Under the pieces are notes generated by a model. That model was not told the DNA's origin. It made no database searches and saw nothing but the letters and a program-made list of their open reading frames with translations. From a bacterium (lineage in GTDB: Bacteria; UBP15; UBA6099; JAJRTR01), in contig JAJRTR010000135.1 of assembly GCA_024278215.1 (NCBI GenBank), positions 1 to 64,000 of the forward strand: 64,000 nt of DNA. Reading direction: 5' to 3'. Shown here piece after piece: positions 33,532 through 53,405 of the stretch (position 1 is the first letter of the stretch; the number at the start of each line of letters is the position of its first letter). Made by a program: the position numbers and the translations under genes.

Positions 33532-36432
33532 CTACTTAACTTTGATAACGGTCGGTGTGATAACGATAACAACTTCGTATTCTTTCACAGTACGGCGTTT
33601 TTTTCTGAACAGGGAGCCGACGAGCGGCAGGTCGGAGATGATCGGGAAGGAGACGCGTGTGAGGCTGTCCTGGGTCTTGATCATGCCGCCGATGATGAAG
33701 GGAATCTCATTTTCCATCTTGATCTCGCTGACAATGTTGCGGACATTTTCGATGGGGTAGCCCTGGCTGGTAGTACCGGTAACTTCAGATATTTTCAGGT
33801 CCATATCGAGAAGGATGTACTCGTTTCTGAAGTGGGGAGTGGCTTTCAGGACGAGGCCGTCGTTGGCATATCGGATTTCGATCTGGTCGAAAGCCACGAC
33901 GGTATACGGTTGTCTTTCAGAGAAGTCGAATGTGACTGCTGTTGATTCTGAAACCATGACGGAAGGATTTGCGATGATTCTGGAGTTGATCTTCTCGACG
34001 AGTACGTCGAGCGAGGAGGCGAACCCTGCGACGCGTTGAGCGAGAGTATCGTACACGAAGAAGCCGTTGGATGCTTTGACGTCGTCTGCTTTTACATCGT
34101 GGGGCATACCGTCGAAATAGGATTCGGTGCCGTTGAAGATCGTGTCTCCTTCGATGAGGCCGCCAAGACTTACCCTGCCGTCCTGGTAGGCGTAGCCGAG
34201 TTTGTAATTTGACTGGTCGTTGCGCAGGAGTTCGACAAGCTGCACGTCGAGTTTGACCTGATCGTAGGGCTGATCGAAGCTCTTGACTATCTCGCGCATC
34301 ATGTCCATTTCAGGTTTTCTTGCGATGGCATATACGGAGGAATCTACAGTGCTGGGGAAGAGTGCCCACTTGTCGCTCTGGAGGTATCCGTCGCTCTTGT
34401 CTCCATTGATTTCGCTGACGTCAGAGAGTTTAACACTCACGAAGAAGTCGCCTTCCGGACCTACGTCCAGTTTAGTGGACCCCTGGGACCGCATAAGTGT
34501 TGTCAGCAAAAGAACCGCGCGTGTCGGCGGATAGTATGTAAGTTTGAAAACTTCGAATTCGAGGTTATCAAATATGTTTCTGTCCATAGCCTCGATCAAT
34601 TTTTTAATTTTGGGCATGTACTGGCGCTGTGTGGAAATGACTATCGAGTTGGTTTGCTTATCGACGTTAATGTCTGTGACACCGTAGTCGTCATCCACAT
34701 CGCCTTTCAACCCGAATCCGGGCAGGTTGGAGATTCTGTCGAGGATTTTACTTTTTTCCATGTCGCTTACAGATATATTCTTGAGATTGTAAACTTCCGT
34801 GATATATTCGCGTTCTTTTACATCTAGACTGCGAACGATCTTAAGAACTCGTTCGTAGTCATCCTGTGTGCCGATATAAGTGATGGAATTTGTTGTGTCG
34901 TTGAAAGCCAGTTTGGGTTTGCCGGCGCCTCCCCGTGCTGTGCCGAGCAGGTCCGTCTTAAGTTCTTCCAGTTTTCGCAGGTCGGAAACCATTGCATACT
35001 TTAGCGGAATGACCTTGGCCACTGTGACACGGGAGGGGATGTCGAGTTCCTTGACGACGTTATAGAAGCGCTCGTAAATGTAGTCGTCGCCGACGAAGAC
35101 CATGGAATTTGAATCGTAATCGATGGTAAGGGTGTTGATGCTCGAAGCTGTCTGAGTTCCAGAGGCTACGACCGTATCGGCAGTGATCTTTAGTCCGCCG
35201 AAGTATGAGTTTGTTACGAGTTCCCGCAATTCATCCAGAAATGCACTGTTCAGTTCGACGTATTTCAGCCTGACGATTCTAGTGACCTGGGTGGCGCGTT
35301 TGGTGACCTTCTGCTGGGGTACATCGAGAGTGGCGAGCAACTCGCGAGCGCGGTTCAGGTCCCTGTCGATGCCGCGCATGAAAATGAGGTTCTTGCTGTT
35401 GTCACATCCGAGGTCCGGAATAACTGTGCTGAGTTGAACGATGATATTGCAGGCATACGAGTATTCAGGCTGGATGACGACAAGTTTCATTTGTGAGCCT
35501 GAATCTTCATAGACTGTTCCTGCTTCGACGGTTTTGACACCTGTAAGAGCGGTGTCTTTGCTCATTATGGCGTAGTAATCGCCGTACTTGCGCCATGTCC
35601 AGTTGTTGGAAGCGGCGATTATGTCGAGAGCGTCTTCGAGCGTGATGTGGGAAAGAGTGACAGTGATGCCGCCGCCGACAGCGCCGGAGGCGTTCATGGT
35701 GGCGCCACTGCTGACCAGTGATGATTCGACGACGATGTTGGCGCCGCCTGCTGCTTCAGACAGCAGGCGCACTGTCTGGGAAATATCCGCATCCTGGAGT
35801 ATAACCGGTCCGACAATGTATGGAGATGTGTCGTATTCTTTTACGCGGTATGGTATTTCCGCCGAGTTGGGCGCGAGGCCCGTCTGGGTATAAGGAATCT
35901 GGGTTGTGCCCTGACGTTCGCCCGGCACGTGAATCACCGGCGGGATTTCAAAGGAAGTTGTGGTCTGGGCCTGGTCTGCGCCCTGGGGTTGTCCCTGGGC
36001 TGTGGATTGCGTGGTCGCGGGCACGGCCGCGGGCCGTGTAGTAAGTTGGAAAGTCCGGCCATTATCGATCAGGTCGAAGTCGTAGTCGAGTTTCTGTTGT
36101 GAATGTACGGAAACGAAAGTAGCGGTTTCGCCGTTGACCTGGAGTTCACGCACAGAGATGTTGCTGACGCCGGCCTTGCCGATTTTCAGGTCATTGTACG
36201 GCAGGCCGAGAGTGGTGTTGTAGAGTTGTATGAGCAGATGAGGTGGCGAATCGAATTCTTTGACTCTGTAGCGGAATCTCTGGCTGCCTTTAAGCTCGAT
36301 GACCAGTTGTCCGTCCTGCATCTCCCTGTAGTTAAGTCTCGCCAGCCTGCCGGTTTCAGCGGATAACCCGATGCTGCAAAGCAACGCCAGGACAGCGGCT
36401 ATTATAACGCTTTTTTTCTTGTTAGTTGCCAT
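33532..36432 (-). CDS. pilQ: Type IV pilus secretin PilQ
   Basis: 966 residues. A signal peptide (about 1-25) precedes an AMIN-like domain (about 28-135). A Gln/Thr-rich linker carries low-complexity AQGQPQGADQAQTTT. Then come secretin N-type domains (several ring-building repeats, about 200-700) and the C-terminal secretin barrel (about 720-966), with the conserved ending FPIISDLPLVGSLFRKKRR. It forms the outer-membrane pore for the pilus. Last gene of pilMNOPQ, 22 bases after pilP. At 966 residues it is longer than many PilQ, because of the repeated N-domains. Confidence 0.9.
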   Translation of the reverse strand: MATNKKKSVIIAAVLALLCSIGLSAETGRLARLNYREMQDGQLVIELKGSQRFRYRVKEFDSPPHLLIQLYNTTLGLPYNDLKIGKAGVSNISVRELQVNGETATFVSVHSQQKLDYDFDLIDNGRTFQLTTRPAAVPATTQSTAQGQPQGADQAQTTTSFEIPPVIHVPGERQGTTQIPYTQTGLAPNSAEIPYRVKEYDTSPYIVGPVILQDADISQTVRLLSEAAGGANIVVESSLVSSGATMNASGAVGGGITVTLSHITLEDALDIIAASNNWTWRKYGDYYAIMSKDTALTGVKTVEAGTVYEDSGSQMKLVVIQPEYSYACNIIVQLSTVIPDLGCDNSKNLIFMRGIDRDLNRARELLATLDVPQQKVTKRATQVTRIVRLKYVELNSAFLDELRELVTNSYFGGLKITADTVVASGTQTASSINTLTIDYDSNSMVFVGDDYIYERFYNVVKELDIPSRVTVAKVIPLKYAMVSDLRKLEELKTDLLGTARGGAGKPKLAFNDTTNSITYIGTQDDYERVLKIVRSLDVKEREYITEVYNLKNISVSDMEKSKILDRISNLPGFGLKGDVDDDYGVTDINVDKQTNSIVISTQRQYMPKIKKLIEAMDRNIFDNLEFEVFKLTYYPPTRAVLLLTTLMRSQGSTKLDVGPEGDFFVSVKLSDVSEINGDKSDGYLQSDKWALFPSTVDSSVYAIARKPEMDMMREIVKSFDQPYDQVKLDVQLVELLRNDQSNYKLGYAYQDGRVSLGGLIEGDTIFNGTESYFDGMPHDVKADDVKASNGFFVYDTLAQRVAGFASSLDVLVEKINSRIIANPSVMVSESTAVTFDFSERQPYTVVAFDQIEIRYANDGLVLKATPHFRNEYILLDMDLKISEVTGTTSQGYPIENVRNIVSEIKMENEIPFIIGGMIKTQDSLTRVSFPIISDLPLVGSLFRKKRRTVKEYEVVIVITPTVIKVK

Positions 36433-36454
36433 AGACCAACCTGTTCTCCGGATT

Positions 36455-37207
36455 TTAAAACATCCTTTTCGACGGACCTTCTTTCTTGCGGTTGCTGTTT
36501 CCCTCTACATAGTCGTTAAACGTCGGTGGCCTGGTGGTTTCACCCTCCTGGCCTGCATATTCTTCTCCGTACTTATCTTCCAGGTACTTTTTATAAAGGT
36601 CGTTTATGTTGTCCATTTCTTTTATCTTCAGTTGTGTTTCCTCTGGTTCAATCCTGGCTATTCTCTTTCGGGTAAACATTGTGAGGCGAAGTTCCCGCTT
36701 ATTTCTTTCGAGTGTCACGTCATATTCGGAAATAGCCTTTACGATGGAGCCGTTTTCAAGGACGTCGCCTTCGCGAACTATTTTGGTTTGCTCGCCGACC
36801 TCGATCATGGCGATCTGGCCGGAGGGCGTCATCGCGGTGCCGATTACTCTGAATTTTTCACCTGCCAGTCTTTTCAGAGTATCCCAGTCGCTTTCCATGA
36901 TACTAACGGGAACAAAGGGATCTCTGCGACCGGTTTTTCTGTTGAAATTCGGGTAAATCATATCAAAACCGGCTTCTTTGATCAAGTCTGGTTTTTCTTC
37001 TTCGACATTTGTGGTTTTCGCGGCAGTCGCGGCGGCTTTTTTAGCCGCGGCAGCCGGTGGTTTGCGCCTGGTGGCAGCCGGCCCCTGCATCTGCGGACGA
37101 GCGGGCGGCGCGCCGGCTTTTTTCCCGCAGCCTCCAATAGTAATCGCCGCAACGCAGATTACTAATGAAAACAAAAAGGTGCAGATGTGTTTGGCTGTTT
37201 GATTCAC
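36455..37207 (-). CDS. pilP: Pilus assembly lipoprotein PilP
   Basis: 250 residues. An N-terminal signal ends in the lipobox-like TIGGC (about residue 27). An Ala/Pro/Lys-rich low-complexity linker (about 30-70) follows, then the PilP core with RRDPFVPVS and MIEVGEQTKIVREGDVL..GSIVKAISEYDVTL. The C-terminal tail is charged. PilP links the PilNO inner-membrane complex to the PilQ secretin. The start overlaps the pilO stop by ATGA. Confidence 0.85.
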   Translation of the reverse strand: MNQTAKHICTFLFSLVICVAAITIGGCGKKAGAPPARPQMQGPAATRRKPPAAAAKKAAATAAKTTNVEEEKPDLIKEAGFDMIYPNFNRKTGRRDPFVPVSIMESDWDTLKRLAGEKFRVIGTAMTPSGQIAMIEVGEQTKIVREGDVLENGSIVKAISEYDVTLERNKRELRLTMFTRKRIARIEPEETQLKIKEMDNINDLYKKYLEDKYGEEYAGQEGETTRPPTFNDYVEGNSNRKKEGPSKRMF

Positions 37208-37983
37208 GGTCGTCGGATCGGTTCCTTCTGTTGATTATTCAGGCTCAGTTTTTTCGATGTGTCCTGCTTCTGGATGTAAAAAGTCAGGGGCATATTGGCG
37301 CTTATTTTCACATAACCCCCAACCTCGATTTCCCGGCCTGTTTCAGCGCTTCCTCCGGTTTCTGATTCACTCTCGGATTTTTCTTTGCTTTGTTGCGGTG
37401 TCAACGACAGGTGATCCACCACCACGAGTTTCGGGAATGTGGACAGTTCATTCATGAAATTGTATATGTTCTGGAAAGAGCCGTCGATTTTAAAATCGAC
37501 ATTTGATTGTGCGTATTCCTTGTTGCTGTCGAATTTTGTAGCCTGGTTCTTCTGGTTCCCGGCGGCGGGCACGGGTGCTGCTCTTCGCGCGCCCGCTGTT
37601 GCTTTGCTGTTGGCATTGGGTTTCGGCGCCCGTCGCGAGGAGGGTTTTATGTAGTTTATATCGACATGTGTGGCAAGCGCAAGGTTTTCGATCAGCACGA
37701 GCACACGGGGTATGAAAACTTCCTGTGGGAAGAACTTCTCGAGCCGGGCAATATCTGCTTTCAGCCGAACGATCTCTTCGCGGGTTTCGGTGAGGAGTCT
37801 TTTTGTCAGTTCTATTTCCCTTACGTCACGTTTTTTTTCTTCCACGATCTTTTCTTTTTCCTTGATGGCATCTTCCATAGGTACATATTTATAGAAATAG
37901 AAAAGAGGAATACATGCGAGTTCGAGCACAAGCAGAACTATGATGATCAGGTTTCTGTTTGCTGATAGCGAACCGACTTCCAT
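37204..37983 (-). CDS. pilO: Type IV pilus assembly protein PilO
   Basis: 259 residues. A membrane helix (about 12-32) is followed by a long coiled coil (about 38-95), a low-complexity Ala/Lys/Pro insert (about 125-155), and a ferredoxin-like core domain (VDFKIDGSFQNIYNFMNELSTFPKL). PilO pairs with PilN to build the inner-membrane alignment platform. It lies 11 bases after pilN and overlaps pilP by four. Confidence 0.85.
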   Translation of the reverse strand: MEVGSLSANRNLIIIVLLVLELACIPLFYFYKYVPMEDAIKEKEKIVEEKKRDVREIELTKRLLTETREEIVRLKADIARLEKFFPQEVFIPRVLVLIENLALATHVDINYIKPSSRRAPKPNANSKATAGARRAAPVPAAGNQKNQATKFDSNKEYAQSNVDFKIDGSFQNIYNFMNELSTFPKLVVVDHLSLTPQQSKEKSESESETGGSAETGREIEVGGYVKISANMPLTFYIQKQDTSKKLSLNNQQKEPIRRP

Positions 37984-37994
37984 CTAAAAGAGCC

Positions 37995-38612
37995 TCACTG
38001 TCCCGGTTTTCTGCGCTGAGCGTTACCGGTGTTGTCGGATTTCTCCGCTTTGGGCGCCAGGCTCATCGAGCCTGAAATTTTAAACTTTTTTACAACCGCG
38101 TCGAAATCGGATTTGCCGCTCGAGTTGGATGCCGCGGCCTGGTCCAGAGTTACGGACCCGATATGGGATATTGAATTGAATTGCAGCATGAAAAAGCCTA
38201 TGGACGCGAATGTGAAAGTTCTGCCCTCAATACTGTATGACCCGGAACGCCTGCCGTCGAATCTTGTAAGCCAGACGTCTTTTGGTATCCTGTCGCGCAT
38301 CTGGTCGAAGAAATCGATCCATTGTTCCTGGTTCTTGGATATGCCGTTGACAAAATCGCGTTTCCCCTGTAGATACTCCTTGTCGCCTGTCGCGGTCTTG
38401 TATTCGGTGATAATCTGCTCGAAATCTTTTAAAGCGAAGTTAAGTTTCTTGATGTCTGCGTCGAGCTCAAGGTTTTTCGTATCGTTTATGGCAATAACAG
38501 TCCCGATTCCGGCAGCGATAAGGATGCCGATAACAAACAGCGGCCACAGGGGCATCCTGAACCCTTCGCGGATTTCGAGTGATATTTTCGGTTGAAGATT
38601 TATTCTTATCAT
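37995..38612 (-). CDS. pilN: Type IV pilus assembly protein PilN
   Basis: 205 residues. The N-terminus MIRINLQP is the PilN signature that binds PilM. One membrane helix (about 23-45) precedes a coiled coil and a ferredoxin-like domain with WLTRFDGRRSGSYSIEG. The low-complexity tail is rich in Lys. PilN joins cytoplasmic PilM to PilO. It starts seven bases after the pilM stop. Confidence 0.85.
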   Translation of the reverse strand: MIRINLQPKISLEIREGFRMPLWPLFVIGILIAAGIGTVIAINDTKNLELDADIKKLNFALKDFEQIITEYKTATGDKEYLQGKRDFVNGISKNQEQWIDFFDQMRDRIPKDVWLTRFDGRRSGSYSIEGRTFTFASIGFFMLQFNSISHIGSVTLDQAAASNSSGKSDFDAVVKKFKISGSMSLAPKAEKSDNTGNAQRRKPGQ

Positions 38613-38618
38613 AAGCTT

Positions 38619-39824
38619 TTACGCGCTGAGGTTTCCTGCCTGTGTTGTACTGCCGAATTCATAGTTCGGCTCGATGGAGACTCGCAGGCAATGCCGGCCG
38701 ATAATCTTGGGCGGTGCCTGCCTCAGCGAAAGTCCGGCCGCCACGCTCATATACGGCACGAGAGCAGCGACTCTTTCAGGCGATTCGTTTCCTATGTACA
38801 CCATGTTTTTCAGCGGATTGGCATGAACCGCCGGGATGCCCAGATCGTCTTCGAAATATCTGGCTATTCCCTTCAAATATGATCCGCCGCCGGTGATGAT
38901 TATTTTCGTTACATTTTCTCCACGGTATTTCGATGTATAGTATGCGAGCGACCTTCTTATCTCGAGAGCCAGATTCTCAATGTGAGGCCGTATAAGCTCA
39001 TACACATCGCGCGTCTCGTCGTCTATCTCGATGAACTCCGATTCCTCGTCTATAAAAGCGAGTCCTTTTTCCTTTTTCAATCTTTCCGAATCGAGGTATT
39101 CGGCTCCGAAGCCCGATTCAATAGCGTGTGTCAGCGTGTCGCCGCCTGTGCCGAATATCCTTGTGAAGCGCAGGATGCCGTTTTTGAGAATGCTGACACT
39201 TGACGCGCTTGCGCCAAGGTCCAGAAGCAGAAATGTTTGTGTAAAAGTATCCTGATCGTCGAAAAGTGAAGCCTCGACTACCGAACGCAGCATGACAAAA
39301 GGGTCCACGTCGATTTCGACAGACTCGACACCGCCTATATGTGCCGCTTCGACTCGCCTCTGTACCGCTTCTCGATGGGCCGCGACGAAAAGCACACTCG
39401 TCTGTTTCACATCTCCCTGCTTTATTTCTCCCAGCACCTCGTAGTCGTATTCCATTTCATCCAGCGGGAACGGAAGAAAACGCTCGACTTCGCCTATCGC
39501 CGCGACTTTCAGTTCTTTATCGCTGAGGCCGACCGGCAGTGAAACCTGCCTGATGACAACCGCGCGGCCCGGAAGAGAACACACAACTCGTTTCTCTTTA
39601 AAGTTGTAAACTTTCAGTATCTGGTATATCGCTTCGCCTATGGCGTCCGCATTGTTGATCACGCCGTCGGTGATCGAGCCGATGGGCGTGGCTGCGAAAC
39701 CGACATTCGCCAGTTGCAAACGAGCAGAAGTCGGCACGATATGCACCATCTTGATGTATCTCGTCCCTATATCAAGGCCGACTTTTGCCGAGTGGCCGCC
39801 TGATCCCAATCCGAAAATCGCCAA
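38619..39824 (-). CDS. pilM: Type IV pilus actin-like ATPase PilM
   Basis: 401 residues, TTG start at 39824 with AAGGTG about 9 bases upstream and no better start nearby. The actin-fold nucleotide sites are present: VGLDIGTRYIKMV, LLLDLGASASSVSI and KIIITGGGSYLKGI. PilM forms the cytoplasmic ring that binds the PilN tail. First gene of the pilMNOPQ block. Its upstream region is the 39825-40350 gap, which holds repeat B2 and a decayed family A end. Confidence 0.9.
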   Translation of the reverse strand: MAIFGLGSGGHSAKVGLDIGTRYIKMVHIVPTSARLQLANVGFAATPIGSITDGVINNADAIGEAIYQILKVYNFKEKRVVCSLPGRAVVIRQVSLPVGLSDKELKVAAIGEVERFLPFPLDEMEYDYEVLGEIKQGDVKQTSVLFVAAHREAVQRRVEAAHIGGVESVEIDVDPFVMLRSVVEASLFDDQDTFTQTFLLLDLGASASSVSILKNGILRFTRIFGTGGDTLTHAIESGFGAEYLDSERLKKEKGLAFIDEESEFIEIDDETRDVYELIRPHIENLALEIRRSLAYYTSKYRGENVTKIIITGGGSYLKGIARYFEDDLGIPAVHANPLKNMVYIGNESPERVAALVPYMSVAAGLSLRQAPPKIIGRHCLRVSIEPNYEFGSTTQAGNLSA

Positions 39825-43508: not shown

Positions 43509-44366
43509 ATGGGAGACATGCCGGATTTCAAAATTAAAGATTTCATGAATGGAACCGTCAAGGAGTTCATAGCCGACAGAATCCGGAATTCCGATGTGGT
43601 GTTCACGGACAACGGGGAATACGACGAGTTCGGCACGGAGGTTGAAGGCGCGGCGGATTTTTTCACTTTTCTCACGTTCATGTACAAGAAATATTTCAGG
43701 GTGGACCTGCACGGACTCGGTAATCTGCCGGTGGAGGGGCCCGGACTACTGGTGTCGAACCATGCGCCCATTCTACCTATCGACGGGATGATGATAGGCA
43801 CGGGGATACTCATAGAGATGGAAAAACCGCGCCTCATCAGGGCCATCGTCAATCGCAGCATCTCCGACATACCGTTCTTTTCGACGCTGATGTACAGGAC
43901 CGGCCAGGTCATCGGCTGCGACGAAAACGTCAGGCGCGTATTCGAGAACGGCAACCTGGTGCTCGTGTTCCCCACAGGCGCGGAAGGACGCCCACATTCG
44001 ATTTTCAACAAATATCACCTCGACAAGTTTACGCTCGGTTTCATGGAATATGCGCTGCGGCACAGGACTCCGATCATACCGACATGCGTCACCGGCTCCG
44101 AGGAAGCCGCGATGACGCTCGTGGGGATAGACCTGCCGCTTGCAGGCTTCAAACACCTGCCGCTCACACCCATATTCCCGTGGCTCGGACCGCTGGGCCT
44201 CGTGCCGTTCCCCTCCAAGTTCGACATCTATTTCGGCGAGCCGATCCACTACTACAAGGACCACGCGGGCGATGCGGACAACCCGGAGAAAGTGCGCGAG
44301 ATCGTCGACGATCTCCACGACAGGATAAAGTCCATGCTCGACAAGGCGCTGGGCAGAGAATCTTAA
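43509..44366 (+). CDS. Lysophospholipid acyltransferase-family protein (paralogue 1)
   Basis: 285 residues. The acyltransferase block contains VSNHAPILPIDG, the H-x6-D variant of the active site seen in the MGAT-like LPLAT subgroup rather than plain PlsC NHxxxxD. LVFPTGAEGRP and TPIIPTCVTGSEEAAM follow, ending IYFGEPIHY. Probably transfers an acyl chain to a lipid or alcohol at the inner membrane. It is a paralogue of the gene at 44903, from which it is separated by hicBA. Confidence 0.8.
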   Translation: MGDMPDFKIKDFMNGTVKEFIADRIRNSDVVFTDNGEYDEFGTEVEGAADFFTFLTFMYKKYFRVDLHGLGNLPVEGPGLLVSNHAPILPIDGMMIGTGILIEMEKPRLIRAIVNRSISDIPFFSTLMYRTGQVIGCDENVRRVFENGNLVLVFPTGAEGRPHSIFNKYHLDKFTLGFMEYALRHRTPIIPTCVTGSEEAAMTLVGIDLPLAGFKHLPLTPIFPWLGPLGLVPFPSKFDIYFGEPIHYYKDHAGDADNPEKVREIVDDLHDRIKSMLDKALGRES

Positions 44367-44902: not shown

Positions 44903-45769
44903 ATGATAGAACACTTCAGAAAATATCTTAAAGAATTCGGTTCAAAAGAACTTGCCGGAAAACTCGATCGCGTCATGGCCGGGAAAAAAGACTCCGGCGA
45001 ATCGGGCGATGTCGACAAATTCGGTTTCGACCCCGCTTATCTCAAAGACTACTTCCCCGCGATGCACGCAGTCTACAGGAACTGGTTCCGCACCGGCACG
45101 CACGGGCTGGAGAATCTGCCCGCCGACGGCCCGGCGCTGATAATCGCCAACCACAGCGGACAGGTGCCCATCGACGGCCTGCTGCTCACCACCGCCGCCA
45201 TCCTCGAAACCGACACTCCGCGCCTGCTTCGCTCGATGATCGACTACTGGGTGCCGGGGCTCCCGTTTTTCAGCGTGCTGTTCGCGCGCATGGGGCAGGT
45301 TGTGGGCGTTTGGGAGAACGCTGTCGAACTGCTCGCCGACGGAGAAATGCTGCTAATATTCCCCGAAGGCACACGCGGGCTGGGCAAAACATGGGACAAG
45401 CGCTACCGGCTGCAGGACTTCACAGTCGGTTTCATGGAACTCGCCGTCATGTACGACGCGCCCATTATCCCCACAGCCGTCATAGGCGGCGAAGAGCAGA
45501 TGCCCAGCCTCTTCGACGCACAGCCTATCGCGAAACTACTAAACGCGCCTTACTTCCCCATCACACCGACCTTTCCGCTGTTCGGACTCAAGGGCGCGGT
45601 GCCCTATCCCGTGAAATACGACATATACTTCGGCGAGCCGCTGGACTACTCACAGTACAAAGACGACTTGCCCCACCCCGAGCGCATCAGGCACCATGTT
45701 GAAGAAGTCAGGACGATACTCCAGGAAATGATCGACGAAAAGCTCAAAGACCGCACATTCCCATTCTGA
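44903..45769 (+). CDS. Lysophospholipid acyltransferase-family protein (paralogue 2)
   Basis: 288 residues. ANHSGQVPIDGLL carries the same H-x6-D active-site variant as the 43509 protein. LIFPEGTRGLGKTW (a more canonical EGTRG), APIIPTAVIGGEEQMP and IYFGEPLDY follow in the same order, so the two are clear paralogues of similar length. Weak ribosome site before ATG 44903. Located just after hicBA; before that insertion the two acyltransferase genes were probably adjacent. Confidence 0.82.
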   Translation: MIEHFRKYLKEFGSKELAGKLDRVMAGKKDSGESGDVDKFGFDPAYLKDYFPAMHAVYRNWFRTGTHGLENLPADGPALIIANHSGQVPIDGLLLTTAAILETDTPRLLRSMIDYWVPGLPFFSVLFARMGQVVGVWENAVELLADGEMLLIFPEGTRGLGKTWDKRYRLQDFTVGFMELAVMYDAPIIPTAVIGGEEQMPSLFDAQPIAKLLNAPYFPITPTFPLFGLKGAVPYPVKYDIYFGEPLDYSQYKDDLPHPERIRHHVEEVRTILQEMIDEKLKDRTFPF

Positions 45770-45798: not shown

Positions 45799-48700
45799 TC
45801 AGAGCCGCGATTTGAGACCCGCGGTGAAGCTGGTCTCTTCAAGGGGTTTGGTGGTTGCGCTTTTGGATTTTGCGAGTATTTTTTTGAAATCAAGATTGAA
45901 ATTTGTTCTGGAACTGACGGAATAAGTGAAGCCGAATCCATAGTTTATGGAATTGACGCCGGTTGTGCCGCCCTGGTCTTTACTGGAGTAATTTGTTTTG
46001 ATTCTGAATCCCGGTTTGTATTTGTAGGCATACTTGATGTCGAACTCCGTTGTTGGATAATTGACCATTTTTTTCACACCGTAGCCTCCTGACAGGACAG
46101 CTTTGGCGGAAGCGTTATAATTATAGGTCAACTTGTAATATTTGTACGGCTGCGTGGAGCCGTTCTGGTCTTCGTAGAAAGACGTTGTCCTGATCTTTTT
46201 TGTCGGCGTGAGATTGACGGTGAATTTGTTGCGGTCATCAGGATTGGTGTCGACACTTGCGGAATCGGGGATAACGAGGTTTTGTGTCGTCTTATCCTTG
46301 AAAGTTCTGTCCCAGGAGATGTTCAATTTCATTTTGCTTTTCCTGGGGGTATATTTAAGAGTCCACTTTCTTTCCTTTTCTTTTGTCCAGGCAGCAGTAG
46401 TCTGGTTGACCTTTCTGGTGAAAGTGGGTGTCCACTTTAAGTTTTTTCTGATATTCCAGGTAAAGTTGAAGGTGTTGGTGTCGGTCTTGGTGGGAGCAAC
46501 CTGCTGGCTGGTTTTGTTGCGAATGAACGAAAGTTTGATGCCTGTGAAGTTATACATGTTCGCAAGGTTGACGGTGTAGGTGTTTTTTTCATCTATCTTT
46601 GTTTCCGCGAGATCATTGTCACGAGAAGTGTTCTTATCGAATTTCAACTTGAGGCTTATATATCTGATTGGTTTGTATGACAGGTTGTAGACGTTCTTGC
46701 GCGTCCTTGAGCCGGTCTGCTTGACGTTGGACCTGCTGAAGGCCGAGGTGAGACTGAATCCGCGCCTTGATTTCGGAGAGAAAGCGAGATTGAGGTTTTT
46801 CAGAACGGTAGTAGTGTCGGCAGACACTTGCTGGGCTTTTTCGATGTCGGTGACCTTGTAGCCGCCGTCGACGGCGAGAGCGAGTTTTCTAAGGTCCATT
46901 TTTATGCCGTAGTCCCTGTTGGTTGTAAGGTTATTTATAAGCTTGGTGTTTGCGGACGTGATGCCGGATATGCCGCTGTCGCCTTTCACATCGTGCACGA
47001 GCGAAAGAGATTTTATGCCCCAGACAGGTCTGCCTGTCGAATATGAAATGTTATGCTTTTTGTGATATGTCTCGATGAGAGAATCTGTTTTTCCGGCCGA
47101 GAAGCTCTTTTTTGTTGAATTATCCGTCAGGTATCCGATCGTCCAGTTTTTAAGGAATTTGAGAGAGAAGTCACCTTTGATATAGCCGGTTTCCTTGCTG
47201 TTGCCTTTGACTTTGCCCGACATGCTTGTATCGAAGTATGGATCGATGACGCGTTTTTCCAGGTTCATCTTGAAGCCCTTATACTTGTAGCTGTTTTTCA
47301 AAACGACGGCGTCGCCGTCTACTACTTCGCTCAGCACTTCGTCGTAGATATAGCTGACTGATATTCTGTCGCCTTCGGACGGGAAAGCTTCCCCGAATTT
47401 CACAAGAAACATATCTTTGCCGCCGATTTCTCCTTCGTCGAACTCCCTGTAGATAACCAGGTTCCCCTGCTCGCGGTCGACACCGATAAACTCCGGATCC
47501 GTTTTAGTATTCAAATTATGCGTTATCGATTTGTAAATATAGTTACCGGTTGACGGATCGGTAATACAGGGAAACGTATACCAGTCACTCTCTCTATTGT
47601 CTGCGTTGTAGATTTCATAGCTCACAGCTTTATCCTTGTCGTCGCATTTGTAATCATTACCATCTTCGTCTTTGCAGATATACTGGCCGCGCTCACAGAA
47701 CTGCATGGAGACAAGGACTTTTCCCTGGCCGCTGATGTTGTCGTTATTGAGTTTGCAGACGAGTTTTCGGCCTGTTGCGTTTTCGATGTCGCCCGTGGGA
47801 ACAACATATTCGCATATTTCGCCTTTGCTTTCATAATTTCGGTATCTTGTATCAGTGTCGACAATCATAGTTTCTTCGGCCGAGGTGAACTCGGAGGCGA
47901 GGTCGGAATTCGTGCGTGTGTACTGGACGTCGAAGGAAAGGTTGTCGGATACATTGACGTGTGTGTCGATGCCGAGGGCTGTTTTTGTGAATTTCGAGCC
48001 CGAGTCGAGTTCGGGCGGAGCGATATAGTAGGACATCAGGACATATTTTGTTTCTGTCGTTGGATTGCCGTAATAATTGCTTTCAACATCTTTGCTGAAT
48101 TTGATATAATCGGTGTCTCCGGAAGTTTCTATATAATATGTGATCCCCTCCTGCTGGTCGAGGTCCGGCCGTATTCCCGGACAAAGCCCCGCATCATCCT
48201 TATCACCTGTTTTGCCTTCGAAGCAGACAAGCGGCAGGTTGTCGAGTTCCGCCGTTTCGTCCTGGGTGTCCGAAAGATAAACGAGTTCGCTGCCCGGCAG
48301 CATGTCGGACGGCAAGCCGCCTTCGGTGGTATCGGCATCGACAAATTTTAAAACCTGCACAACATCTTCGACGATTATATTCGGGTTGTAATAAGAGAAC
48401 TCGATAGTGACACTTCCTTTGAGTCCTATGTTTTTCACATCTTCATCGCCGTTGTCGTAAAGAATGTATATCTGGCCGCTGAACAGGCTCCTGTGGCCGA
48501 GAATCACTGTCTCGGGATTCGACGTGGGTGTGTATCTTGTCGCACCGCTGATAACCTTGACGGAGCCTTCTAATATATACGGATTGCCGAGATTTACACG
48601 GACGCAGGTGTTCGTAGCGGTATAGCCGGGGCAGTCCGCAGGTTCGACATTTACCTGGGTATCCAGATTGAAAACTTTCGAGTCGCTGAATATGGACCTT

Positions 48701-50781
48701 GTGGAGCCGGACGGCGCCATGCTCAACATGTAGGCCGTGTTGATTTTATACTTGTCCTTCCCCTTTTTAGTTCGACCGCTTTTGTAGGAAAGGCCGAATG
48801 CGTTTTTGCTGCCGGTCGAGATAGAGTATGTGCTCTGTTCGTAGCGGACATTGAATTTCCTGTCCTGGCGGATGGGTGTCTTGAAGTAGATATCCCCGGT
48901 CTCGTAAAGAACAGAGTATTCGCCGGGCGGGATGATCTCACCGGTGTCGGGGTAATATATCTGGACCGAGCCGGGCGCCATGAAAGCATTAGCGCGGTAA
49001 GGGCCGATGTCGCCGTCGCCGTCGAGCTGCACTTCACCGGTCTGTGAGCGGGACTCCGCCATGAGAGCCTGGAAAGTGAAATGTCCGAAGTCATAACCGA
49101 ACTCGAGTCCGTTGATTTCCTTCTTGAGGTTGATCCTGCTCGTGCCGGTGAAAGTCGTTGTGAAATCGCCGAAGTGGACCCGCCCGTCGCTGCCCAGCAT
49201 CTCGATGTCCAGGTGTTGCGAGGCGCCCGGTGATTTCCTCATTGTCCCGTCGACTCTGATGCCGTTCTTGAAGCTACCGTCGAGAAACACGTTCCAGTTC
49301 TGTTGCAGCTTGTATTTCGCGATGGAAACGTCTTCCTGCTTGTTGAGGCTGCTGAGAAAAGCTTTTCGCACCTCGCGCTCGCGGATGATCTGGAAAGCGA
49401 TGCTGCCGGTCATCCTGAAGTCGCCGGCGCAAAGCTGCGGCGGTAGCGACTGGTCGCAGCCGTTGTGTTTGGGCTCGATTGTCACAAGCGCGTTCTTTAT
49501 CAACTGCTTCGAACTCGAGTCGACGGGCAGATATGCTTCTTCAAGTGTTACCGGGATGTTCGCACCGGTTTTTATTCCCTTGAAAATCAGCGGAACCACT
49601 GTGAGGGGATACTTAAGGCCGGAGAGGTCTTTGGTAAAGTCGCCCAGCAGGCTCAGCCGTATCTCGCCCTTGCGGTTGTCGACTATATTTGAACCTTCAC
49701 CGAACGAGTCGTTGTATAAAACAGAGGTCGTCTGTATGCCCCGCGCCGCACGGACGGCTTCGCGGTATTCCGCGAGCAGCTTTTCCGCCTCTTTCTTTTT
49801 CCCATCCATTTCCACTTCGGTAATTTCAACATTCAGGTTCTTCGCAAGCTTTTTCAGTTCTCCAAGAGACATGTCGTCGACGCTTTTGACTATATTGACA
49901 CTGTTGGACGGTATTCCCAGGTTGTTGGTATACACGAGATGCGCCGGATCATATTTGATCCGCACGTCGATGCCGTCGAGCGAACGGTATTCCGGGAACT
50001 TGTAGATAACAAGATCGAGCCGCACCCACTGGTTGAGGCCGATGACGGCATTCTGTTTCGAGAATCCTACGATGACGTCGGCGTCTTCTTCTTTTTCGGC
50101 TGTTTCCATCTTTGTGAAACCCAGCGACATCGCCATGGCGTCGGTGTCCTGTTTGCGGGCCTTCTGTATTTTGTATTTGTTTTCGAGCGAGCCGGTGGTA
50201 AGCAAAGTGTTTTCGCCGGCGACCGCTGCCATCAGCAGGGGGTCCATCTCGAGGCCGTCGTAGCCCACTACCTTGAAATAGCCGGGGTTCGACGGAGAAG
50301 TCTTCCCGTCGGCGTTCCGGGCGAACGAGGTGAAACTGATATATGTGGAACCGGTTTTCTTCATCCTGAACGGAACTTTGATGAAAATCTGCTTCTCCGT
50401 AATCGGCTGTCTTGCAAACGCTTTGAATGTGACGATCCCTTTATCGGTATCGACTCTGAAGCGCTCGACCAACTCGAAAACCGGGTCGGCGGCGTAGTAG
50501 CTCCTGTCTTTGAAAAGCTCGATGTACGCGGGATCGACTGTCAGTGTACACTGTCCGCCGGTGAGTTTGTCGCCCTCCTGCGGCATGATATATATATCGA
50601 AGTACGACGTTTCATCGACAGGAACGGCAGCACCGTTTTCGGAAGTGATCCGGAACTGTGCGGCCTGCACGCAGACAATGCAGCCTGCCGCCATGATAAA
50701 AGCGAAAAATAATATGCGGAAGCACAGACCGACAGCCGGTGACGGGACGCCCGTTATGGTTCTGTACGTTCTTTCAGACAT
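45799..50781 (-). CDS. Giant surface protein: cohesin-like modules plus outer-membrane beta-barrel
   Basis: 1660 residues. A signal peptide (about 12-40, ending CVQAAQ) precedes a cohesin-type domain (about 42-190). A second related domain (about 240-450) is interrupted by a charged helical insert. From about 480 onward the sequence is a long series of alternating short beta strands. It includes units of the type PPGEYSVLYETGDIYFKTP and ISVSYIYDEV that resemble pre-barrel modules, then a repetitive C-terminal half (about 1200-1660) typical of an outer-membrane barrel. Many paired cysteines (CERGQYIC, CEYV, CPGY) suggest disulphides outside the membrane. The start overlaps rsmI by 28 bases, with no visible ribosome site. 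I do not recognise the full architecture. Confidence 0.7.
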   Translation of the reverse strand: MSERTYRTITGVPSPAVGLCFRILFFAFIMAAGCIVCVQAAQFRITSENGAAVPVDETSYFDIYIMPQEGDKLTGGQCTLTVDPAYIELFKDRSYYAADPVFELVERFRVDTDKGIVTFKAFARQPITEKQIFIKVPFRMKKTGSTYISFTSFARNADGKTSPSNPGYFKVVGYDGLEMDPLLMAAVAGENTLLTTGSLENKYKIQKARKQDTDAMAMSLGFTKMETAEKEEDADVIVGFSKQNAVIGLNQWVRLDLVIYKFPEYRSLDGIDVRIKYDPAHLVYTNNLGIPSNSVNIVKSVDDMSLGELKKLAKNLNVEITEVEMDGKKKEAEKLLAEYREAVRAARGIQTTSVLYNDSFGEGSNIVDNRKGEIRLSLLGDFTKDLSGLKYPLTVVPLIFKGIKTGANIPVTLEEAYLPVDSSSKQLIKNALVTIEPKHNGCDQSLPPQLCAGDFRMTGSIAFQIIREREVRKAFLSSLNKQEDVSIAKYKLQQNWNVFLDGSFKNGIRVDGTMRKSPGASQHLDIEMLGSDGRVHFGDFTTTFTGTSRINLKKEINGLEFGYDFGHFTFQALMAESRSQTGEVQLDGDGDIGPYRANAFMAPGSVQIYYPDTGEIIPPGEYSVLYETGDIYFKTPIRQDRKFNVRYEQSTYSISTGSKNAFGLSYKSGRTKKGKDKYKINTAYMLSMAPSGSTRSIFSDSKVFNLDTQVNVEPADCPGYTATNTCVRVNLGNPYILEGSVKVISGATRYTPTSNPETVILGHRSLFSGQIYILYDNGDEDVKNIGLKGSVTIEFSYYNPNIIVEDVVQVLKFVDADTTEGGLPSDMLPGSELVYLSDTQDETAELDNLPLVCFEGKTGDKDDAGLCPGIRPDLDQQEGITYYIETSGDTDYIKFSKDVESNYYGNPTTETKYVLMSYYIAPPELDSGSKFTKTALGIDTHVNVSDNLSFDVQYTRTNSDLASEFTSAEETMIVDTDTRYRNYESKGEICEYVVPTGDIENATGRKLVCKLNNDNISGQGKVLVSMQFCERGQYICKDEDGNDYKCDDKDKAVSYEIYNADNRESDWYTFPCITDPSTGNYIYKSITHNLNTKTDPEFIGVDREQGNLVIYREFDEGEIGGKDMFLVKFGEAFPSEGDRISVSYIYDEVLSEVVDGDAVVLKNSYKYKGFKMNLEKRVIDPYFDTSMSGKVKGNSKETGYIKGDFSLKFLKNWTIGYLTDNSTKKSFSAGKTDSLIETYHKKHNISYSTGRPVWGIKSLSLVHDVKGDSGISGITSANTKLINNLTTNRDYGIKMDLRKLALAVDGGYKVTDIEKAQQVSADTTTVLKNLNLAFSPKSRRGFSLTSAFSRSNVKQTGSRTRKNVYNLSYKPIRYISLKLKFDKNTSRDNDLAETKIDEKNTYTVNLANMYNFTGIKLSFIRNKTSQQVAPTKTDTNTFNFTWNIRKNLKWTPTFTRKVNQTTAAWTKEKERKWTLKYTPRKSKMKLNISWDRTFKDKTTQNLVIPDSASVDTNPDDRNKFTVNLTPTKKIRTTSFYEDQNGSTQPYKYYKLTYNYNASAKAVLSGGYGVKKMVNYPTTEFDIKYAYKYKPGFRIKTNYSSKDQGGTTGVNSINYGFGFTYSVSSRTNFNLDFKKILAKSKSATTKPLEETSFTAGLKSRL

Positions 50782-51644
50782 TGTAAAATTCTGTAGGCTT
50801 TGTTCTTGGAAATATCCGCGATTTCCGCCAGTGCCGCGGCAGTATTACCCGGCGTCGCTTCGAGCCGGGCCAGCACACGGGCGGTTTTCTCAATATCTAT
50901 CAGGGTCTCACCGGCGGCGACCGGCGGCTCCCCTCTTCCCTCTAATAATATAGTATATTCCCCTTTTTCTTTCAGATTAAGTCCTTTTTCTTCAATTTCT
51001 TTAAATGTAGTTCTCGTGATCTCTTCGTTTATTTTTGTGAGTTCCCTGAAAAACACAACGCGGCGGTCGCCCAGCACGGCGTACAGGTCGCTTATTGTTC
51101 GGCGCACTCTTTTCGCGGACTCGAACAGTATGACCGCCCTCTCTTCACGAGCCAGCGCGGCGACAGCTTCCGTCCTTCTCCCCCCGGTACGGGGCAGAAA
51201 CCCCTCGAACACAAACCGCGACGAAGCAACACCGGACACGGAAAACGCCGCGGCGATGGCCGACGCGCCCGGCACCGGCACAACCTTCAGCCCACGCGCC
51301 GCCGCCGCCGCCACAAGTCCGCCGCCGGGATCGCTCGCTCCGGGCGTGCCCGCGTCCGACACCAGCGCGCCACTCGCGCCCGCCTCGAGTTCGTCCAGCA
51401 GCGCCGGCGTTTTCTTCGCCTCCATATCGCCGGAAAAACTGCGCAGGCGGGTGCCGATCTCGTAACGGCTAAGCAGCTTCCGCGTTCGCCGTGTGTCCTC
51501 CGCCGCTATCCAGTCGACACCGCCCAGTATCTTCAACGCCCTGAGCGTGATGTCCTCGAGATTGCCTATCGGCGTCGCGACGACATAAAGGACTCCGCCC
51601 CCGGGTTCGGTTTTCTTTCCAGAATCTGTCGCAGACATATCCAT
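50754..51644 (-). CDS. rsmI: 16S rRNA 2'-O-ribose C1402 methyltransferase RsmI
   Basis: 296 residues. YVVATPIGNLEDITLRAL and WIAAEDTRRTRKLLSRY are RsmI signatures, as are VSDAGTPGASDPG and PVPGASAIAAAFSVSG. The C-terminal helical part ends GNTAAALAEIADISKNKAYRIL. It uses SAM to methylate the ribose of C1402 in the decoding centre. Its 3' end overlaps the start of the surface protein, so these two may be co-transcribed. Confidence 0.93.
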   Translation of the reverse strand: MDMSATDSGKKTEPGGGVLYVVATPIGNLEDITLRALKILGGVDWIAAEDTRRTRKLLSRYEIGTRLRSFSGDMEAKKTPALLDELEAGASGALVSDAGTPGASDPGGGLVAAAAARGLKVVPVPGASAIAAAFSVSGVASSRFVFEGFLPRTGGRRTEAVAALAREERAVILFESAKRVRRTISDLYAVLGDRRVVFFRELTKINEEITRTTFKEIEEKGLNLKEKGEYTILLEGRGEPPVAAGETLIDIEKTARVLARLEATPGNTAAALAEIADISKNKAYRILQCLKERTEP

Positions 51645-51698: not shown

Positions 51699-53405
51699 CT
51701 ACTTGTTTCCGAAGCGTCCCGAGCGGAAAATGGCGGCGATCCAGACGACCGCCATAATAAGCAGCGTAATGATAAGGATGTCCGGCAACGACTTGCCGAA
51801 TACGGTTACATCGTCGTATCGCGGAAGGATCGTGGAAGCGGAAATGAGAAGCGCCGCGAGAATGATGGCAAGCGACAGCCTGTTGACGCTCTGTCCGGCG
51901 CGGTCTACGGTGCCCTTTATCGTGTCGACATAATTCTCGAGTTCGATCTTCACCTTGAGTTGCCCCTCTTCGAGGCCGCGGGAAATGCGGTCGAGGCGTT
52001 TGGGCATGGCGATGACGAGGTCGCGGATGTCGATGGCGGTTTTTATGAAGTCTTTGCCCATATTCCGGGGGTCCATTTCGCGCCTTAGCAACATGTGCGC
52101 GGCCGGCTCCGCGGCGGCGATCAGATCGAATGTCGGGTCGAGATGTCGGCCCAGCCCTTCGAGTGTCACCAGCGTTTTGTCCATCAGGGTGAACTCGCCG
52201 GGCAGCTTGATCCTGTACTTGAGTCCAATGTTGAAAAGCTCGACGACGATTTCCTCGATTTTTATCTGGCCGATAGTGATGTCGGCATATTCCTGAAGCA
52301 GGCGGCCCGCCTCGCGCACCAGCGCCTTTTTGTCTGTCGACGGGTCGATCTCCGCGATTTCTTCGAGCACTTCCACCAGCCCCTCGGGGTCGCGCTGCAC
52401 TATCGAGATGAAATACTTCGCCATGTTGCGCTTCATTATCGGGTCCACTATGCCCACCATGCCGAAATCTATCAGCGCCACCACCTGGTTTTCCATTACA
52501 AAGATGTTGCCGAAATGCGGGTCCCCGTGAAAAATGCCGTCGATAAGTATCATCTTTATAAAGGCATTTGCGATAACTTCGGTCAGATACGTCATATCGT
52601 ATCCGGCTGCCAGCAGACGTTCTTTCTCTTTTATCTTTATGCCGTGGATATACTCCATCGTCAGCACACGTTTGGTGGTGTACTCCCAATAAATCATCGG
52701 GATGCAGATAGTTTCGTCGTCTTCAAAGTTCGCCGCCAGCCTGTCCGCATTCTGTCCCTCGTGCGTATAGTCCAGCTCCTGGTGCATTGTCCTGGTGAAT
52801 TCTTCGACCCGCTCCATAATGTTATAGAGCCGAGCCCACTCGAATCGCTTTTCCGCCTGCCGCGCAAGGTCCATCATGATGCTCGTGTCGATGTTCACCA
52901 TCTGTTCCATGTCGGGCCGCTGCACCTTCACAACCACCTCGCGACCGTCGAGCAACACCGCCTCGTGCACCTGGCCGATGGAGGCCGACGCGATGGGCAC
53001 ACGGGCGAACGATCTGAACACCTGGTCCATAGGATGCAGCAGGTCGTTTTCTATGATGTCCTGAACCTTCTCGAATGGGAAGGGAGGCACTTCGTCCTGC
53101 AACTTCGAGAGTTCTTGGATAATGTCCTGCGGTATCATGTCCGGGCGGCTGCTGAGAATCTGGCCGGCCTTCACATAAGTCGGGCCCAGTTCCTCGATCA
53201 CCCGGCGCATGCGCACGGCGAGCGGCAACTGGTAGTCGTCCGTGGCGGTTACTTTTTCGCGTAGTGAACGCGGGAAGAATCGCGTGACCTCGAGCGCCTC
53301 GGCCACCCAGAAAAAGCCGTGCTTGAAGAACACCGACGCAACTTCCTTCACGCGGACGCCTTTTTTATAAAATCTCGGTACGAATTGTTCCGGTATAGCA
53401 ACCAT
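51699..53405 (-). CDS. UbiB/ABC1 (AarF) atypical kinase
   Basis: 568 residues. The family motif KAGQILSSRPD (KxGQ) is at about 79-89, with a conserved EVVVKVQRP lysine, HQELDYTHEG (ExD), HGDPHFGN and LIDFGM (the DFG metal site). Two C-terminal membrane helices (about 518-536 and 545-562) anchor it. Members support ubiquinone or other isoprenoid-lipid synthesis through an ATPase activity. No other quinone genes are nearby. Confidence 0.9.
   Translation of the reverse strand: MVAIPEQFVPRFYKKGVRVKEVASVFFKHGFFWVAEALEVTRFFPRSLREKVTATDDYQLPLAVRMRRVIEELGPTYVKAGQILSSRPDMIPQDIIQELSKLQDEVPPFPFEKVQDIIENDLLHPMDQVFRSFARVPIASASIGQVHEAVLLDGREVVVKVQRPDMEQMVNIDTSIMMDLARQAEKRFEWARLYNIMERVEEFTRTMHQELDYTHEGQNADRLAANFEDDETICIPMIYWEYTTKRVLTMEYIHGIKIKEKERLLAAGYDMTYLTEVIANAFIKMILIDGIFHGDPHFGNIFVMENQVVALIDFGMVGIVDPIMKRNMAKYFISIVQRDPEGLVEVLEEIAEIDPSTDKKALVREAGRLLQEYADITIGQIKIEEIVVELFNIGLKYRIKLPGEFTLMDKTLVTLEGLGRHLDPTFDLIAAAEPAAHMLLRREMDPRNMGKDFIKTAIDIRDLVIAMPKRLDRISRGLEEGQLKVKIELENYVDTIKGTVDRAGQSVNRLSLAIILAALLISASTILPRYDDVTVFGKSLPDILIITLLIMAVVWIAAIFRSGRFGNK

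Follow-up and report, generated by a model that had tools for sequence, protein, structure and literature searches.

On the minus strand of the window, which is the whole 64,000-nucleotide stretch of DNA analyzed here, a gene at 45799..50781 encodes a 1660-residue protein in which two predicted cohesin modules precede a long SprA-like, barrel-type region. Tentatively, we read this protein as a channel of the outer membrane, akin to SprA, that would serve in export or anchoring; its cohesin dyad probably lies in the periplasm and may receive partners that bear a dockerin.

The open reading frame runs uninterrupted for 1660 codons from an ATG start. Orthologues with 32-36% identity and frames open over ~1600 codons occur in the same order of bacteria, in 7/7 genomes of the order and 0/379 other genomes. 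The genomes of the order are UBP15-type MAGs of unclassified bacteria, including UBP15_UBA6099 and ADurb.Bin236. An upstream RsmI-type methyltransferase gene (50754..51644, minus strand) overlaps the start of the window gene by 28 bases, and a UbiB/ABC1 kinase-like gene (51699..53405, minus strand), also kept in relatives, lies farther upstream. By inspection, the order of kinase, RsmI and window gene is kept in the relatives with long enough contigs. Because the orthologues are long and open and the upstream gene order is kept, comparison indicates that the frame is a conserved gene, not a chance frame. As a clue to function these neighbors were dropped, because RsmI and UbiB are housekeeping genes. 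The window gene itself has neither PorV nor cargo as a neighbor. Directly downstream, on the opposite strand, lie two acyltransferase (PF01553) genes in tandem (43509-44366 and 44903-45769). At 33532-39824, on the minus strand, the type IV pilus assembly genes pilM, pilN and pilO and a PilQ-type secretin gene are consecutive.

The protein begins with an apparent Sec signal peptide, recognized by eye from the sequence (residues 1-40; 50662..50781, minus strand). When the single window protein was used as query, searches of the PDB by sequence, NCBIfam and the genome contigs gave no useful match. Further comparisons were made with alignments, profiles and predicted structures.

The first cohesin module spans residues 38-176 (50254..50670, minus strand) and the second spans residues 234-438 (49468..50082, minus strand) with a helical insertion near 306-347, the latter delimited by VIA and AlphaFold secondary structure. 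In an AlphaFold2 model of residues 38-700, made with six orthologues in the alignment, pLDDT is mostly 75-85 in module 1 and ~70-84 in the core strands of module 2, being lower in the helical insert. Both modules are predicted to form the nine-stranded jelly-roll sandwich by which a cohesin fold is defined. The best Foldseek match in the PDB, with an E of 5e-14, is 3l8q, a type II cohesin dyad from ScaA of Acetivibrio; it covers both modules. In VIA alignments, module 1 matches cohesin 2vo8 with a Z of 16.6 (rmsd 2.0 over 130 residues), and module 2 matches type II cohesin 4wi0_A with a Z of 13.4 (rmsd 2.7 over 140 residues). The structure of 4wi0_A was solved together with an X-dockerin.

Sequence profiles were compared as well. 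Against the Pfam Cohesin cut-off of 24.1 bits (PF00963), the window protein scores 18.8 bits, under it, and the orthologue in genome G005 scores 33.4 bits, over it; at E <= 1, 6/7 orthologous sequences match. PDB profile searches gave no match with alignment A2 and weak matches only with A3, including a cellulosome cohesin at E 0.22. Another Pfam cohesin match in the window's genome (contig C98) was set aside, as its frame reads by eye like a bacterial Ig domain. The initial annotation had proposed two cohesin-like modules on the N-terminal side. The folds found by AlphaFold2, Foldseek and VIA bear this out together with the Pfam match of the orthologue, and both modules have, in the predicted structures, the cohesin fold. 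The same domain order, with the dyad N-terminal, recurs in 7/7 genomes of the order and in 0/379 genomes outside it.

The remainder of the protein, residues 461-1660 (45802..49401, minus strand), is barrel-like by its AlphaFold strands and its matches to outer-membrane barrels. The model of this region was built on a shallow alignment that left out paralogue sequences, and its mean pLDDT is 47, with only about 1342-1657 being fair. In this best-modelled part (45811..46758, minus strand), ~16 strands, each 9-18 residues long, follow one another in antiparallel order. Foldseek returned mainly outer-membrane porins, TonB receptors and SprA, with a non-barrel protein, ApoB100, as the best match at low probability. 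The best 50 VIA matches listed are nearly all outer-membrane barrels or ushers with Z up to 17.6, one being a LamB complex. Most VIA matches have an rmsd near 13 Å, because the modelled sheet is unclosed. A weak Pfam match to Porin_4 (E 0.004) was not taken as a guide to function; it says barrel-like and nothing more.

These data support, at the level of models, an outer-membrane-barrel-type transmembrane β-strand region over residues ~460-1660. Compared with the 36-strand barrel of SprA, the window protein shows many long strands that stay unclosed in the weak model. Eight cysteines (442, 451, 717, 726, 853, 867, 1009 and 1029) are invariant across all aligned orthologues, which suggests that they form disulfides in an oxidizing compartment. 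Thus, of the cysteine-containing strand region and barrel described in the initial annotation, the cysteines and the long antiparallel strands like those of outer-membrane barrels stand, but a closed barrel was not obtained in the weak model of residues 461-1660.

Four other proteins of the same genome have counterparts of the ~1000-1200 residues at the C-terminus. In a maximum-likelihood tree, these sequences fall into five orthologous groups with one member each from the window's genome, and the window clade has a support of 100/100. The barrel region thus belongs to a set of five paralogues of ancient origin in each genome. N-termini differ in the other groups, long Lys-rich linkers being one example. 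One such paralogue, of 1854 residues (G000:C51, L047:5898-11462), carries a ~800-residue Lys/Pro/Glu-rich N-terminal linker and sits behind genes reading like flagellin and hook-associated genes. Common to the four paralogues is a conserved family module at residues 490-712 of the window protein (48646..49314, minus strand). A widespread set of ~1000-1200-residue proteins has the module too; the one compared with both NCBIfam and Pfam (L128:4493-7777) matched no family at E <= 0.001.

Within the module, a stretch of ~90-130 residues is shared with SprA/Sov (residues 593-685 by hhalign; 48727..49005, minus strand) and contains a GPY...Y.V.Y.TG.I.F motif. Aligned to SprA by hhalign, the window orthologues have a probability of 78% (E 1.8e-5) and the paralogue family has a probability of 97% (E 3.9e-11). 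An hhalign of alignment A1 against A2 was not counted as evidence, being circular with sequences in common. The family profile matches 153/386 genomes across bacteria. Four proteins of ~1700-2200 residues, picked from these matches, score 193-758 bits on the SprA/Sov model TIGR04189, 3/4 being over its cut-off of 200 bits. TIGR04189 in turn matches the paralogues near model positions 590-690, with an E of 3.7e-9 in the window's genome, where the best paralogue scores 34.9 bits. From this profile evidence, the paralogue family and SprA/Sov share a module. Phage tail tube and DUF2460 matches were dismissed as functional clues; where they can be placed, they fall on the same DYxIDYxxGxIxF-type motif.

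The window protein itself has no TIGR04189 match at E <= 10 in the NCBIfam search. SprA_N (PF14349) is absent from Pfam scans of the window protein and the aligned family members, and is present in a true SprA control. Because it is under the TIGR04189 cut-off and lacks SprA_N, the window protein was not filed as SprA; by these comparisons, it is a variant of an SprA-like family, not an SprA member. It resembles SprA/Sov (PDB 6h3i, 6h3j, 8gl6 and 8gl8) as a giant outer-membrane barrel-like protein with the common module and with paralogues adjoining PorV-family genes, but is shorter and bears an N-terminal cohesin dyad, found in none of the SprA profiles or literature compared.

The PorV genes belong to a context resembling type 9 secretion. 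In the order, 7/7 genomes encode PorV-family proteins that exceed the family cut-off by far. In one of them (G004:C52, L056:1527-10934), a 1525-residue cargo, PorV and an SprA-like paralogue are encoded in a row, and at its C-terminus the cargo can be aligned with the C-termini of PorZ and PorU. In another (G002:C40, L055:1252-5866), PorV is followed by an SprA-like paralogue. In the window's genome (C34, L145:3601-8857), a PorV-family gene follows the gene of a protein whose C-terminus is type 9-like. None of these three units lies in a genome known as Bacteroidota. Type A CTD cargo of F. johnsoniae depends on PorV for its release from the SprA translocon (PMC12618676). Judged by gene order and sequence matches, the sister clade resembles an outer-membrane unit for type 9-like export; at least one duplication separates this PorV and cargo context from the window gene. 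A search for GldM/PorM gave no match in these genomes, nor in any control or SprA-bearing genome.

Most of what is known of cohesin-dockerin pairs comes from enzyme scaffolds outside the cell, and some cohesin-fold modules do not serve dockerins. Dockerins, which the initial annotation had named as the partners to look for, are encoded in all seven genomes of the order. The window's genome has six dockerin sites over the cut-off, of which 4/6 are C-terminal, on proteins of 365, 1474, 1504 and 2026 residues. The dockerins in all genomes and the order-restricted dyad permit, but do not prove, docking at the barrel.

SprA is a 36-strand barrel with its N-terminus in the periplasm (PMC10994853). 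In a distant relative (L113, G314:C1), an OmpA domain stands N-terminal of the barrel-like region; another (L114, G267:C29) has by eye a SPOR-like N-terminal domain, without a Pfam match. Because the SprA N-terminus is periplasmic and the OmpA domain of the relative is N-terminal of the barrel, the dyad is, by analogy, probably periplasmic as well. On the same grounds, of the two readings that the initial annotation had offered, a pore with periplasmic cohesins fits better than a surface display platform. The initial annotation did not mention the paralogues, the kinship to SprA, or the PorV and cargo genes next to sister paralogues.

In the channel that we tentatively favor, the barrel would be inserted in the outer membrane after Sec export, with the dyad on the periplasmic side, and would work like SprA as a channel for export or anchoring. 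Close to the entrance of the pore, the dyad would capture a partner or cargo. This partner would most plausibly be one of the secreted proteins encoded in these genomes with a dockerin at the end, and the dockerin may play a role like that of the C-terminal signal of type 9 cargo. Docking is the weakest step of this explanation. A stronger form, improbable at present, is a dockerin-sorted route, in which periplasmic cohesins on an SprA-like channel would select C-terminal dockerins and pass these proteins through the barrel, parallel to the CTD-PorV-SprA-like route of the paralogues in the same cell.

The modules could instead be periplasmic spacers or binders of something other than dockerins, on an SprA-like or other large outer-membrane channel that is no dockerin receptor. 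A fold by itself does not show binding, module 2 has a long helical insertion that ordinary cohesins lack, and orthologue identity is moderate. What makes this alternative rather doubtful is that two adjacent cohesin folds are kept across an order whose genomes all have dockerins. If the cohesins faced outside, they could hold dockerin-bearing enzymes or adhesins in the manner of a cellulosome scaffold, as may be suited to the C-terminal position of 4/6 dockerins, three of them on large proteins; cohesin scaffolds with type 9 signals have also been proposed in Cloacimonadota (PMC8542988). Such display is unlikely, since domains N-terminal of such barrels are expected to be periplasmic (SprA, PMC10994853; OmpA in the distant relative) and no carbohydrate-binding domain was found in Pfam scans of the window protein and its orthologues.

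The protein could also be a large porin, receptor or adhesin of an ordinary kind in the outer membrane, and its SprA likeness would then be a common β-hairpin motif without functional meaning. The SprA-aligned stretch is short, the same motif weakly matches phage tail proteins and DUF2460, and the best VIA matches are ordinary porins. However, with the paralogue profile true SprA proteins are found in other lineages, and the sister clade adjoins PorV-family genes, so that we regard this reading as quite unlikely.

Among known cohesin proteins, ScaA (3l8q) and cellulosome cohesins resemble the window protein in having two cohesin folds in tandem, but theirs are on a secreted scaffold with carbohydrate-binding modules, whereas the window dyad is on an outer-membrane barrel. 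Of the features of a cellulosomal scaffoldin, dockerin proteins in the same genome are present, and Pfam scans gave no carbohydrate-binding module or S-layer anchor, the rest of the window protein being barrel-like. The solved folds closest to module 1, 2vo8 and 2jh2 of Clostridium perfringens (Z 15.6-16.6, identity 12-18%), differ in being modules of secreted glycoside hydrolases of a Gram-positive bacterium. The cellulosome-like system proposed for Ca. Stygibacter of Cloacimonadota, a Gram-negative candidate phylum, likewise combines cohesins, C-terminal dockerins and a type 9-like CTD, but its cohesins are on a large scaffoldin with carbohydrate-binding domains (PMC8542988) and not on an outer-membrane barrel protein. 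The literature searched on cohesin domains, dockerins and type IX secretion, which did not cover the classic survey of non-cellulosomal cohesins, describes a different architecture.

A cohesin dyad on an SprA-like protein suggests a so far undescribed device for docking-guided export or anchoring. It would link cohesin-dockerin pairs and the type 9 system, and if this is true, cohesins might act in export across the outer membrane or in docking within the periplasm. The type 9 system is placed in Bacteroidota by the literature used here. That an uncultured lineage combines SprA-like paralogues, PorV and type 9-like cargo also bears on the origin of the type 9 translocon.
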